From positions 62,001 to 126,000 of the forward strand of contig NZ_FPAF01000010.1 of assembly GCF_900116295.1 (NCBI RefSeq): a DNA stretch of 64,000 nt. Reading direction: 5' to 3'. The stretch comes from Bacillus sp. 103mf (lineage in GTDB: Bacteria > Bacillota > Bacilli > Bacillales > Bacillaceae_G). This document shows, one piece after another, positions 6,061 through 59,276 of this stretch (position 1 is its first letter; every line of letters begins with the position of its first letter). The notes under the pieces were generated by a model, which saw nothing but the letters and a program-made list of their open reading frames with translations, was not told where the DNA came from and ran no database searches. The translations under genes and the position numbers were made by a program.

Positions 6061-6163
6061 AAAATATCGGCGATTTTTTAAATATATCGATCGCTTCTTC
6101 TCATATATCGGCGAAATTTCGAATATATCGGCGATTCGACAAAGAATAAAGATCCTTCGACAA
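6061..6163. repeat. 103-bp 'ATCGGCGATTCGACA' repeat, left copy flanking the NERD gene
   Basis: Nearly identical, and equal in length, to 7174-7276. It contains four spaced TATCGGCGA / TATCGATCG blocks and ends ATAAAGATCCTTCGACAA. Related shorter copies are at 33629-33684 and 59141-59276. No coding potential. Confidence 0.8.
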
Positions 6164-7156: not shown

Positions 7157-7173
7157 CTCAGCCACCCCTTTAT

Positions 7174-7276
7174 AAAATATCGGCGATTTTTGTAATATAT
7201 CGATCGTTTCTCCTCATATATCGGCGAAATTTCGAATATATCGGCGACTCGACAAAGAATAAAGATCCTTCGACAA
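7174..7276. repeat. 103-bp 'ATCGGCGATTCGACA' repeat, right copy flanking the NERD gene
   Basis: Direct repeat of 6061-6163 with only a handful of substitutions. A fragment of the same family (about 7317-7350, AAACATCGGCGATATAACGATCG) follows. The rest of 7277-7600 holds no convincing gene. Confidence 0.8.
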
Positions 7277-12867: not shown

Positions 12868-13198
12868 TCGCTTTTCACATATAAATCGTTACTATCCAAA
12901 ACAAAACAGGACATGCTCTCGCCTTCTCATTTTGTTTTAAACCTAGCACGTGGCACAAAACAGGCACTGACCGCTTCTACGCATGGCCAGTTGCTCCCGC
13001 CCACCTAAAAAGAAAAGGATTTTTATGCCGGGTTTTCAACATACAGATCACCGCTATCCAAAACAAAATAAGACCTGCTCTTGCCTCCTCCCTTTGTTTG
13101 AAACTTCGCATGTGGCAGAAACAGGCACTGACCGCTCCTATACATAGCCAGTTGCTCTCGCCCATCCTAAAAAGAAAAGGGGGTTTATATCGATTTTT
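12868..13198. repeat. Two tandem copies of the 'GGCC-ATGCATAG' repeat family
   Basis: Two adjacent diverged copies (about 12868-13034 and 13037-13198). Both carry CGTGGCA/CATGTGGCAGA, CAGGCACTGACCGCT, CTA(C/T)GCATGGCCAG / CTATACATAGCCAG, CTC(T)CGCCCA and CCTAAAAAGAAAAGG. They lie between est and rnr and contain only short chance ORFs. Confidence 0.65.
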
Positions 13199-13238
13199 CA
13201 ATCTGTATTTATATATGTAAAAAAGAGGCAACTAGATC

Positions 13239-33628: not shown

Positions 33629-33684
33629 ATCAGCGCTTTTTTCAATATATCGGCGATTCGACACGGGAGAAAGACCCTTCGACC
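33629..33684. repeat. Partial 'ATCGGCGATTCGACA' repeat
   Basis: ATCAGCGCTTTTTTCAATATATCGGCGATTCGACA plus AAAGACCCTTCGACC, the distal half of the family seen around the NERD gene and at 59141. Confidence 0.65.
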
Positions 33685-41636: not shown

Positions 41637-41663
41637 CTTTTCGCCACCCTTAGTTGTTGTATG

Positions 41664-41973
41664 ATAAAGTGAAACTTCCATTCGGAGATGCTTTTTCCTC
41701 CGAATGGTTAGCCCGCCCAATCGGGCTCTTACAAGCAGTTCCTCTCCTCGCATTCTCTTCTGCGCTTACTGCTTGTTAGAGCGGGATAAAGTGAAACTTC
41801 TATTCGAAGTTACTTTTTCCTTCGAATGGTTAGCCCGCCCAATCGGGCTCTTACAAGCAGTTCCTCTTCTCGTATTCCCTTCTGCGCTTACTGCTTGTTA
41901 GAGCGGGATAAAGTGAAACTTCCATCAGCGATTTTATCCCGCTGATGGAAAACCCGCGAATAGCAGGATAAGA
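41664..41973. repeat. Three bcr-type elements inserted head to tail
   Basis: Unit 1 (41664-41790) and unit 2 (41786-41912) have an identical 122-bp period; unit 3 (41908-41973) is a short version. All begin ATAAAGTGAAACTTC and end AG(A)GCGGG or GCAGG. Adjacent units share the ATAAA pentamer (41786-41790, 41908-41912). Each has the terminal hairpin with different but self-complementary bases (CATTCGGAG/CTCCGAATG, TATTCGAAG/CTTCGAATG, CATCAGC/GCTGATG). Confidence 0.8.
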
Positions 41974-56685: not shown

Positions 56686-57222
56686 ATGTTCGTTTTACAC
56701 GGTAGTTCACGTTCAAATGGGAATACAGAACAATTAACTCATATGCTGTTAGAAGGCGTCCAAACGGAAGAAGTATATTTACGCAATCATACCATCAAGC
56801 CCATTACAGACCAGCGTCACGATGCCGAGGGCTTTCAACCAATTGATGATGATTACGAGGGCATCGTCAAACGAATGCTTGAGCATGATACTATTGTCTT
56901 CGCAACGCCGCTTTATTGGTACGGGATGAGCGGATATATGAAAAACTTTGTCGATCGTTGGTCGCAAAGCTTACGAGATGCCTCCCTTCATTTTAAAGAA
57001 CGTATGAAAGATAAGAAAATGTATGTTGTCATTGTCGGCGGCGACAATCCAAAATTAAAAGCACTTCCGCTCATTGCACAGTTCCAGTACATTTTTGATT
57101 TTGTCGATGCTTCCTTTGAAGGTTATATAATTGGATCTGCCAATGCACCAGGAGAGATTGTGAATGACAAAGAAACAATCGAAAAGGCAAAACTATATAA
57201 TCAAATTTTTAAGGAAAATTAA
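56686..57222 (+). CDS. NAD(P)H-dependent oxidoreductase, flavodoxin-like
   Basis: 178 residues of the FMN-reductase/NADPH quinone reductase fold. It has MFVLHGSSRSNGNTEQLTHMLLEG (FMN phosphate loop), TIVFATPLYWYGMSGYMKNFVDRWSQ and VVIVGGDNPK. Probably reduces quinones, flavins or nitro compounds; exact substrate unknown. Six bases after the MerR gene and likely its target. Confidence 0.85.
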   Translation: MFVLHGSSRSNGNTEQLTHMLLEGVQTEEVYLRNHTIKPITDQRHDAEGFQPIDDDYEGIVKRMLEHDTIVFATPLYWYGMSGYMKNFVDRWSQSLRDASLHFKERMKDKKMYVVIVGGDNPKLKALPLIAQFQYIFDFVDASFEGYIIGSANAPGEIVNDKETIEKAKLYNQIFKEN

Positions 57223-57231
57223 CAGAATGAT

Positions 57232-57261
57232 TTGACAAACTAACATCCAAATGCATACAAT
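57232..57261 (+). promoter_or_regulatory. Sigma-A promoter of the ABC-F leader
   Basis: -35 TTGACA (57232-57237), 18-bp spacer, -10 TACAAT (57256-57261). The predicted start near 57268 gives a leader of about 235 nt before the ABC-F ATG at 57503. Confidence 0.85.
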
Positions 57262-57296
57262 AAAGGTGAAATTATGAAAGGAAGGTACATCGGCCA

Positions 57297-57308
57297 ATGA
57301 AGTTCTAA
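57297..57308 (+). CDS. Three-codon upstream ORF (MKF-stop) of the ABC-F leader
   Basis: ATG AAG TTC TAA preceded by GAAAGGAAGG within the predicted transcript. A second short frame (57274-57300, MKGRYIGQ) ends with ATGA overlap, but its own Shine-Dalgarno would lie upstream of the predicted transcription start. Minimal uORFs are a feature of ribosome-sensing attenuators that control ABC-F resistance genes. Confidence 0.6.
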   Translation: MKF

Positions 57309-57357
57309 TTCTCTTTTTTATTCATCCATCACAAATAGTGAAACAAAATGATGAAAA

Positions 57358-57502
57358 CTAGAAGAGGATTAGTCTACCCTTTTGTCGATAACTTTCTTTT
57401 GACAGGAACATGTAAAAATACGTGTACAGTTTTTTGTGCATCTCTTTTTTACATGCTACGGGTGAAATCTATCCTCTCTAGTGAAACTAGGGAGGTTTTT
57501 TT
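57358..57502 (+). promoter_or_regulatory. Attenuator/RBS-sequestering leader of the ABC-F gene
   Basis: Hairpin 1 (GAACATGT 57406-57413 / ACGTGTAC 57420-57427, then AG and T6) is a terminator. CATGTAAAAA (57409-57418) is exactly complementary to TTTTTACATG (57446-57455), so it can form a competing antiterminator. Hairpin 2 (CCTCTCTAG 57473-57481 / CTAGGGAGG 57487-57495 plus T7) is a second terminator that also buries the Shine-Dalgarno GGGAGG. The strand 57358-57372 (CTAGAAGAGGATTAG) can pair with 57469-57481, apart from two bulges, and so free the RBS. Confidence 0.75.
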
Positions 57503-59140
57503 ATGACCATTTTAACAGCACGAAACATTGAAAAAAGCTTTGGTGACCGCACTTTATTTACGTTACAAGCACTTGATATCCACGCCCATGATCGCATTGG
57601 AATTGTCGGTGTAAACGGCGCCGGAAAATCAACGCTATTACAAATATTAAGTAAAGAAATAGAACCTGATGGCGGAACGATTACTCATTACGGTTCGATC
57701 GCTATCATTCCACAATTCCATGAGGAGACATTGGAAACAGCCTCTTCTATTGCAAAAGGACAATGGGGTATTTCTCACGTCACAACGAATATGAGCGGCG
57801 GCGAACGCGGGCGTTTAAAAATTGCTCATGCTCTTGAACAAGAAGCATCTATCTTATTTGCTGATGAACCAACAAGTCATCTCGATATGCATGGCACAGA
57901 ACAACTAGAGCAGGCATTACTATCTTATAAAGGAGCAATTATTTTAATTTCCCATGACCGCGCCTTATTAGATGCCATTTGTACAAAGATAATCGAGATT
58001 GAAGACGGTACCGTTCGGGAATATAAAGGAAATTACACAAACTACCGGGGACAAAAGGGTCAGCAAAGGCAGCACCAGCAAGCGGAATATGAAAAGTATA
58101 CGAAAGAAAAACAGCGCTTAGAAACAGCAATCGCCAGCAGACTACAGCGGGCTTCCGGTATGACAAAAATTCGTTCAAGTTTTAGTTCTTCTGAATCTAG
58201 GCTATATAAATCGGGAGCAGCTTATAGCCAAGGCAATGTTCAAAAAGCCGCAAAAGCACTAGAAACAAGATTAGAACAACTAGAAAAGAAAGAAAAACCA
58301 AAAGAAATTGTGCATACAAAGTTTGATTTACAATACCATGCACCCATTCATAGTAAAACAGCTGTGCAATTTAATAAAATTACGAAAAAAATTGGCAACC
58401 GCACCCCCTTTCACAATATAAACGGAAGTATAGCTCCAGGTGCAAAGCTTGCTATTCTCGGAAAAAATGGAAGTGGAAAAACAACGCTATTTCATCTGAT
58501 TCAAGCAAAGGAACGAGGAATTCAGCTTTCAAAAAGCTGTAAAATTGGTTATTTTGAACAAACATTAGCCATTCTGCAAAAAGACAAAACCATTTTACAA
58601 AACGTAATGGAAGAAACGCGTTATGACGAAGCTTTCGTACGAACAATCCTTGCTCGCCTACTATTTCGAAGAGAAGATGTGTATAAACAAGTAAACGTAT
58701 TAAGCGGCGGCGAACGTGTAAAGGTCGCACTAGCAAAAATCTTCTTAGGAGACTACAATATGCTTCTTCTTGATGAACCGACAAATTATTTAGATCTTGC
58801 CACTCAAGAAGAACTAGAGCACATGCTGAAAGATTATCCTGGTACTGTGTTGTTCATTAGTCACGACCGCACATTTGTTCATAAAATTGCTGATCACATT
58901 TTACACCTAGATGAAGACGAACCGTGGATCTTTCAAGGCAATTACAAGCAATATACGAAACGAACTGAACAGTCTTCTATCAATCCAACAGAGCAGGAAC
59001 TATTGCGTCTACAAACAAAATTAACAGAAGTAATCGGACGCATTTCGATGCCAGGACGTCACGATGATGTGATTGCTCTGGAAAATGAATACGAGCAGTT
59101 GCTACGTCAAATTCAAGAATGTAAAGCATCTGTCCTCTGA
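57503..59140 (+). CDS. ABC-F type ribosomal protection protein (VmlR/Vga-like)
   Basis: 545 residues: two ABC domains without membrane spans. First domain: Walker A GVNGAGKS (about 35-42), signature MSGGERGRLK, Walker B ILFADEPTSHLD. An interdomain linker follows, with a basic coiled-coil (TKEKQRLETAIASRLQRASGMTKIRSSFSSSESRLYKSG). Second domain: GKNGSGKTT, LSGGERVKVALAKIF, LLLDEPTNYLD. Length and layout match antibiotic-resistance ABC-Fs that enter the ribosomal E site and displace lincosamides, streptogramins A or pleuromutilins; drug range cannot be read from sequence. The elaborate leader supports drug-inducible expression. Confidence 0.88.
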   Translation: MTILTARNIEKSFGDRTLFTLQALDIHAHDRIGIVGVNGAGKSTLLQILSKEIEPDGGTITHYGSIAIIPQFHEETLETASSIAKGQWGISHVTTNMSGGERGRLKIAHALEQEASILFADEPTSHLDMHGTEQLEQALLSYKGAIILISHDRALLDAICTKIIEIEDGTVREYKGNYTNYRGQKGQQRQHQQAEYEKYTKEKQRLETAIASRLQRASGMTKIRSSFSSSESRLYKSGAAYSQGNVQKAAKALETRLEQLEKKEKPKEIVHTKFDLQYHAPIHSKTAVQFNKITKKIGNRTPFHNINGSIAPGAKLAILGKNGSGKTTLFHLIQAKERGIQLSKSCKIGYFEQTLAILQKDKTILQNVMEETRYDEAFVRTILARLLFRREDVYKQVNVLSGGERVKVALAKIFLGDYNMLLLDEPTNYLDLATQEELEHMLKDYPGTVLFISHDRTFVHKIADHILHLDEDEPWIFQGNYKQYTKRTEQSSINPTEQELLRLQTKLTEVIGRISMPGRHDDVIALENEYEQLLRQIQECKASVL

Positions 59141-59276
59141 TATATCAGCCGTTCTTTGCAATATATCGGCGATTTTCATAATATATCGACCGTTCTTTAC
59201 AATTTATCGGCGATTTTCATAATATATCGACCGTTCTTTACAATTTATCGGCGATTCGACACGATATAAAGACCCA
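59141..59276. repeat. 'ATCGGCGATTCGACA' repeat with a 41-bp tandem unit
   Basis: Two full 41-bp units (TTCTTT(G/A)CAAT(A/T)TATCGG... CGATTTTCATAATATATCGACCG) and a partial third lead into ATCGGCGATTCGACACGATATAAAGACCC, the family's 3' end. It starts two bases after the ABC-F stop. Confidence 0.75.

Follow-up and report, generated by a model that had tools for sequence, protein, structure and literature searches.

The leader of a Vga-like ABC-F gene in Bacillus sp. 103mf is, with a probability that we put at about 85%, a ribosome-sensed attenuator in which a single RNA switch would have two outputs. The uORF, the pairing strands, the mutual exclusion of their helices and the overlap between the terminator and the Shine-Dalgarno sequence rest on the sequence together with computation. 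The arrangement is already known from related genes (vmlR, rli53/lmo0919 and, above all, cplR), and the window, i.e., the whole 64,000-nt stretch of DNA that was analyzed, adds one instance of it. The elements discussed below are the following.

57232..57261, plus strand: promoter TTGACA-18-TACAAT, 11 of 12 consensus bases
57277..57285, plus strand: Shine-Dalgarno sequence of the uORF, AAAGGAAGG, read from the sequence, 11 nt 5′ of the uORF
57297..57308, plus strand: putative three-codon uORF ATG AAG TTC TAA (MKF), with equivalents in 7 of 7 Vga/VgaL loci
57305..57317, plus strand: strand 1, 5′ arm of the anti-antiterminator, paired over 13 bp to 57360-57372 in the MFE structure
57358..57379, plus strand: strand 2, of which 57360-57372 pairs with strand 1 and 57358-57379 with strand 3
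57380..57455, plus strand: middle arm, comprising the helix 57380-57388/57399-57407 (masked state), a 10-bp helix and the inner hairpin 57422-57441
57460..57481, plus strand: strand 3, 3′ arm of the antiterminator, −19.5 kcal/mol with 57358-57379
57473..57502, plus strand: predicted intrinsic terminator, a 10-bp stem (57473-57495) followed by T7 (57496-57502), −13.2 kcal/mol
57490..57495, plus strand: Shine-Dalgarno sequence of the ABC-F gene (GGGAGG), part of the terminator 3′ arm and spaced 7 nt from the ATG
57503..59140, plus strand: ABC-F ribosome-protection-like gene, 545 aa, nearest to the Vga group

The promoter, which a preliminary description of this DNA had called strong, is indeed close to consensus, and transcription presumably starts near 57268, giving a leader of 235 nt from that start to the ATG. 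The three-codon uORF MKF named in the same description is present along with its Shine-Dalgarno sequence and, to judge from the sequence, is probably translated. An eight-codon frame at 57274-57300 (MKGRYIGQ, read by eye) begins about 6 nt past the presumed transcript start and overlaps the start of MKF as ATGA. This frame is probably untranslated, because its possible Shine-Dalgarno sequence lies mostly 5′ of the presumed transcript start.

Strand 1 starts with the final base of uORF codon 3 and overlaps the uORF stop, and the core of the helix that it forms with strand 2 (helix 1:2) has a pair probability of 0.997 in the free RNA. The 5′ arm of the terminator (57473-57482) overlaps strand 3, and bases 57473-57481 are common to helices 2:3 and 3:4, which are mutually exclusive by computation. 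The T7 follows the terminator stem at an offset of 0 nt and abuts the ATG of the gene at 57503; the hairpin 57473-57495 is the sole site listed in a terminator scan of 56800-57700. All six bases of GGGAGG are paired in the free RNA. These observations uphold the second hairpin of the preliminary description, with its T7 and with a 3′ arm that is the Shine-Dalgarno sequence. They also make the combined transcriptional and translational control proposed there likely, since the terminator hairpin also hides the Shine-Dalgarno sequence.

The attenuator would operate as follows. With no drug present, ribosomes would pass through the three-codon uORF, leaving strand 1 to pair with strand 2; strand 3, being free, would fold with strand 4, and RNA polymerase would terminate at the start codon, within the T7. 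In any read-through RNA, the Shine-Dalgarno sequence would be buried in the same terminator hairpin. A drug that stalls the ribosome at the uORF start would leave strand 1 covered, and strand 2 could then capture strand 3 before strand 4 is synthesized. The terminator would not form, transcription would continue, and the Shine-Dalgarno sequence would be out of its 10-bp hairpin. The middle arm would fold alike in both states and would most likely serve as a strand spacer or a polymerase pause. Drug stalling, termination and induction are the steps that we infer for this leader.

The leader has an MFE of −66.9 kcal/mol, compared with a mean of −45.0 (sd 4.2; z −5.2) for dinucleotide shuffles, none of which (0 of 300) folds as low; 77 of 2552 stretches of 235 nt, taken from both strands of the window, are at least as stable. 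A ribosome footprint on the uORF was masked in three ways (57276-57312, 57276-57315 and 57276-57318), with pair probabilities calculated on the leader plus 13 nt, which together with the free RNA gives four modeled states. Under the masks ending at 57312, 57315 and 57318, the probability of the terminator falls from 0.976 in the free RNA to 0.076, 0.002 and 0.002, respectively, and that of helix 2:3 rises from 0.000 to 0.820, 0.882 and 0.883. When growing transcripts are folded with the last 10 nt hidden, the free series retains helix 1:2 from 57378 onward, and the full 2:3 helix is found in the masked series from 57492 onward. With the shortest mask and a leader ending at 57502, the MFE structure retains the terminator (−54.7 vs −53.2, a difference of 1.5 kcal/mol). 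Energies for “AAT forced” structures under a mask were disregarded, since pairs that are forced take precedence over the mask.

The masked state is less clear-cut with respect to the ribosome-binding site. There, the Shine-Dalgarno sequence sits in a weak local fold (−4.5 kcal/mol), in which the probability of being unpaired is 0.15–0.18 for GGG, 0.85–0.93 for A and 0.01 for the last GG. The pairing of 57358-57372 with 57469-57481, which was said to free this site, is reproduced, but full release is not borne out in the masked model, in which the site is still mostly paired. Folding of full-length and truncated leaders, the check that had been suggested, shows that the distal switch flips with the mask and that the supposed first switch is indifferent to it.

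The ABC-F protein exceeds the curated cut-off of NF000355, a general model of ribosome protection (520.5 bits vs 380), and obtains its top score, 583.9 bits, from the Vga model NF000170, for which the cut-off is 725; it can therefore be described as Vga-like, but not as Vga by that cut-off. Of the solved structures, 7nhl (“Lincosamide-streptogramin A resistance protein”, 412 bits) matches it best, with 5zlu (349 bits), Lmo0919 (7nhn, 300 bits) and ExpZ (6ha8, 240 bits) ranking lower. Structure 6ha8 is presumably VmlR. The plasmid proteins Vga(C) and Vga(A), at about 41–44% identity, are the best among the matches listed, and a plasmid tblastn search returned at least 5000 records, all below 60% identity among the matches listed. 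Searching genome contigs with the protein yielded only two remote MAG loci (27% and 22% identity). In viral contigs, the protein as query found no relative, and a six-protein alignment as query found 14 loci with 22–43% identity in the best segment. The gene is apparently chromosomal, judged from its surroundings, and its product would presumably function in resistance. The tmRNA tag, GKQQNNFALAA, together with the genes present, would fit a relative within the Bacillaceae, e.g., Lysinibacillus.

An array of a 41-bp unit in 2.9 copies (59140-59256) begins at the end of the ABC-F gene. The repeat core ATATCGGCGATT has eight matches in the window (at most one mismatch), all on the plus strand, vs 0.38 expected, at 59140-59256, 6064-6136, 7169-7249 and 33647-33658. 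Longer tandem arrays are found at 12892-13201 (162-bp unit, 1.9 copies) and at 41663-41925 (122-bp unit, 2.2 copies).

Comparison with published systems agrees with the assignment, made in the preliminary description, to uORF-sensed attenuation ahead of an ABC-F gene, the kind described for cplR (PMC10201436), vmlR (PMC9226507) and rli53/lmo0919 (PMC8079631). The uORF and its Shine-Dalgarno sequence lie in the anti-antiterminator, the helices are exclusive by computation, and an ABC-F gene follows. In cplR of Clostridioides difficile, the terminator stem is described as hiding the Shine-Dalgarno sequence, the transcript as ending at the start codon, and both kinds of attenuation as acting together; the uORF start codon is reported to be required for induction (PMC10201436). 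Like cplR as published, the window has a three-codon uORF in a 5′ hairpin, a terminator stem that holds the Shine-Dalgarno sequence and a poly-U tract that runs to the start codon (57473-57502, then ATG at 57503). It differs in the organism and in the peptide, MKF instead of MRI, the comparison being with the published description.

For vmlR, mutants in the uORF, SL-1 and SL-3 are reported to behave as expected of an anti-antiterminator/antiterminator/terminator system; induction depends on the uORF start codon, a separate SL-4 partly hides the Shine-Dalgarno sequence, and SL-1 is separated from the distal strand of the antiterminator by a stretch with a NusG-dependent pause motif, TTNTTT (PMC9226507). 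The best Rfam match of the window leader is ncr1575 (RF02452; positions 1-212 of the 212-position model, 37.1 bits, E 4.3e-4, gathering score 60), a family that among 14 control genomes has a match in B. subtilis only. We infer that RF02452 is the vmlR leader because its consensus holds AUGAUUAAC, GCUAUUU and CCUUCC, which are quoted for the vmlR uORF, SL-2 and SL-3 (PMC9226507). The window leader and this family both have a three-codon uORF in the anti-antiterminator, and the Rfam consensus has GGGAGG in its terminator 3′ arm. Unlike the window, vmlR is published with the uORF peptide MIN and with SL-4, which is absent here; its protein is also more distant (240 bits).

The rli53 leader of lmo0919 is reported to contain a translated three-amino-acid ORF (PMC8079631). 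A Listeria leader of this lmo0919/vgaL type (locus L032), which matches Rfam rli53, shares with the window the uORF MKF in the context CCAATGAARTTCTAAT, strands 1-4 and a terminator arm that is the Shine-Dalgarno sequence, located in L032 9 nt from the ATG. Unlike L032, the window has no match to rli53 (RF01481, gathering score 70), none being found in 57200-57550 up to E 10, and Lmo0919 is more distant from its protein than is Vga(A) (300 vs 412 bits). Strands 1-4 and a three-codon uORF followed by CTAAT, as in the window, also occur ahead of vga(A), vga(C) and similar plasmid genes of Staphylococcus and Jeotgalibaca (L012, L013, L014, L016 and L017).

These likenesses were also assessed with a descriptor, the thresholds of which were chosen after the leader had been seen: a uORF of 1–3 codons including the ATG, helix 1:2 at −9 kcal/mol or below, helix 2:3 at −8 or below, and a terminator at −8 or below with a T tract. 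Two matches were found on both strands of the window, namely the leader (−13.9, −16.5 and −13.2) and a site of about equal strength on the minus strand at the edge of a tRNA-Arg gene (−11.7, −12.0 and −16.5); the shuffled 330-nt leader region gave 0 matches in 1000. Applied with the same thresholds to the match strand of 12 fetched loci, the descriptor picks the leader uORF in all seven that encode Vga/VgaL proteins: L012 (Vga(C)), the near-duplicates L013 and L017 (Vga(A)), L014, L015, L016 and L032. Their uORFs, of two to three codons, overlap strand 1 in every case and encode MKY (L012, L016), MIN (L013, L017), MRN (L014), MK (L015) and MKF (L032). On the match strand of L018, L019, L021 and L023 there was no match, and L020 had one that was out of place, about 1.6 kb upstream of the gene.

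Two layouts can be distinguished. In L012, L013, L014 and L016, unlike in the window, the terminator lies 33–41 nt before the ATG and is followed by a separate Shine-Dalgarno sequence; in the window, L015 and L032, the terminator arm is itself the Shine-Dalgarno sequence, 5–9 nt from the ATG. The leader of L015, an Acetoanaerobium ABC-F locus, has an apparent two-codon uORF, ATG AAG TAG (L015:1244-1252), in the four-strand layout. A basal helix (57277-57286/57391-57400) closes the SL-1 hairpin of the window leader over the uORF Shine-Dalgarno sequence and scores −16.4, vs −4.9 to −12.0 for non-cognate partners; it is distinctive in L015 too. In L012, L013, L016 and L032, however, some non-cognate partners outscore the cognate one, and for this reason the basal helix was set aside as evidence.

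For msrD, the leader peptide is described as longer, and the leader as having a single intrinsic terminator along with a TTNTTT site (PMC10314930). Just before the msr-like genes of L019 and L021 lies an ATG...TAA frame, MYLIFM, which is the MsrDL peptide as published (PMC10314930). About 1.4 kb upstream of the same genes, Rfam sRNA_1300 (RF02862) matches L019:1363-1593 and L021:1361-1591; sRNA_1300 may, for its part, represent an attenuated leader belonging to the upstream gene.

The preliminary description had envisaged a two-stage attenuator, in which the stalled ribosome would shift two terminators, one at 57408-57435 that has an antiterminator to itself and another at 57473-57502. We regard this as improbable. 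The exact 10-base complement on which it was founded (57409-57418/57446-57455) does exist and is the longest Watson-Crick helix in the leader. A helix at least as long arises in 9 of 200 shuffles when the whole leader is used, and in 2 of 300 when its 96-nt middle part is; moreover, hairpins precede both T6 tracts of the middle arm. Both hairpins, however, are weak, offset from their T tracts and absent from the terminator scan of 56800-57700. The first (57408-57425, 7 bp, −4.8 kcal/mol, or −6.5 with flanks) ends 4 nt before its T6, and the second (57422-57441, −6.8 kcal/mol), which carries the T6 at 57430-57435 across its loop, ends 3 nt before the T6 at 57445-57450. The 10-bp helix was rejected as an antiterminator: its 3′ strand is made 11–20 nt past the end of the first T6 (57435), too late to antiterminate the first hairpin, and the helix keeps a mean pair probability of 0.985 throughout the four modeled states, irrespective of the uORF mask. 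In the growing-transcript folds, the first hairpin appears at identical transcript lengths with and without the mask and, as modeled, is a transient alternative. Of the earlier claims, the 7-bp hairpin and the exactness of the complement stand, whereas two separately switched terminators do not, since the distal element alone changes among the modeled states.

Our suggestion is that a structural role, or one in pausing, suits the middle arm better. A vmlR-like, NusG-dependent pause that gives time for ribosome loading on the uORF would add to the attenuator reading, and we hold it tentatively, at somewhat less than an even chance. The motif has a published precedent between SL-1 and the distal antiterminator strand of vmlR (PMC9226507), occurs three times in the middle arm (57394, 57430 and 57445) and is present once in the corresponding part of L012, L014, L016 and L032. 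Against this, it is missing from that part of L013 and L015, and the pause stays a suggestion because, when the plus strand of the window is divided into 666 tiles of 96 nt, 233 contain TTNTTT. Another reading, that the T7 is an A/T-rich spacer and the switch merely hides or frees the ribosome-binding site, appears to us quite improbable. It accords with the full sequestration of the Shine-Dalgarno sequence in the free RNA and with the chance occurrence of T-rich spacers in A/T-rich DNA, but the 10-bp stem, the 0-nt offset and the T7 constitute the one terminator-like site in 56800-57700, the cplR transcript, with the same layout, is reported to end at the start codon (PMC10201436), and the Listeria and Acetoanaerobium leaders are laid out likewise. 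Finally, the uORF could be incidental and the switch could sense something else, e.g., a small molecule or a protein. Three-codon frames are common by chance, and translation of this one is a prediction; nevertheless, the recurrence of a uORF over strand 1 in 7 of 7 Vga/VgaL loci, the need for the uORF start codon in vmlR and cplR induction as published (PMC9226507; PMC10201436), and the absence from the leader of any Rfam match at or above the gathering score make this very improbable.

The logic common to these leaders appears clear from their sequences; their descent from one family does not. RF02452 matches 0 of the 12 fetched loci at E 0.01. A covariance model built from five leaders, with the window and Acetoanaerobium held out, ranks the window leader first of nine window matches, at E 0.13, and misses that of Acetoanaerobium at E 10. 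For these reasons, common descent is not claimed. In the consensus structure of five relatives, 92.9% of cells pair and no pair is changed on both sides, a result equaled by 500 of 500 shuffles; covariation among the five gives no support beyond conservation. A hand-anchored comparison covered the window, L012, L013, L014, L016, L032 and the ncr1575 consensus, L015 being left out as its register differs. Helix 1:2 keeps 10–12 of 12 pairs across these seven leaders, and the only one changed on both sides is pair 9, which reads C-G in the window, G-C in Listeria and A-U in the remaining five; the other columns are constant, show G-U variation, or lack the pair in one or two of the seven.

Searches with the leader DNA returned only pieces of about 37 bases from plasmid records (E 0.8, 8 records) and nothing from phages, and a pattern common to the window and Listeria leaders had 0 matches in viral contigs. 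CplR is placed in ARE1 and VmlR2 in ARE2 in the published account (PMC10201436). It is conceivable, but in our opinion doubtful, that a single RNA element, ancient or exchangeable, underlies the minimal-uORF leaders of both VmlR and the Vga group, is listed in Rfam under two sRNA names (ncr1575 and rli53), and has moved between ABC-F subfamilies independently of the gene. The window would then exemplify such an element, with its Vga-like gene, its end-to-end match to the vmlR model and its Listeria uORF peptide.

The leader will be no surprise to a specialist. It brings an apparently chromosomal Vga-like ABC-F gene into the group that a three-codon uORF gates, and it places the compact cplR-style layout, with terminator and Shine-Dalgarno sequence in one hairpin, outside Clostridioides, as does the Listeria leader. 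The comparison further suggests that terminated leaders of a single functional kind lie behind the Rfam sRNAs ncr1575 and rli53, a link that would aid annotation. Should the protein prove to work as a resistance factor, it could be missed in susceptibility tests carried out without induction.
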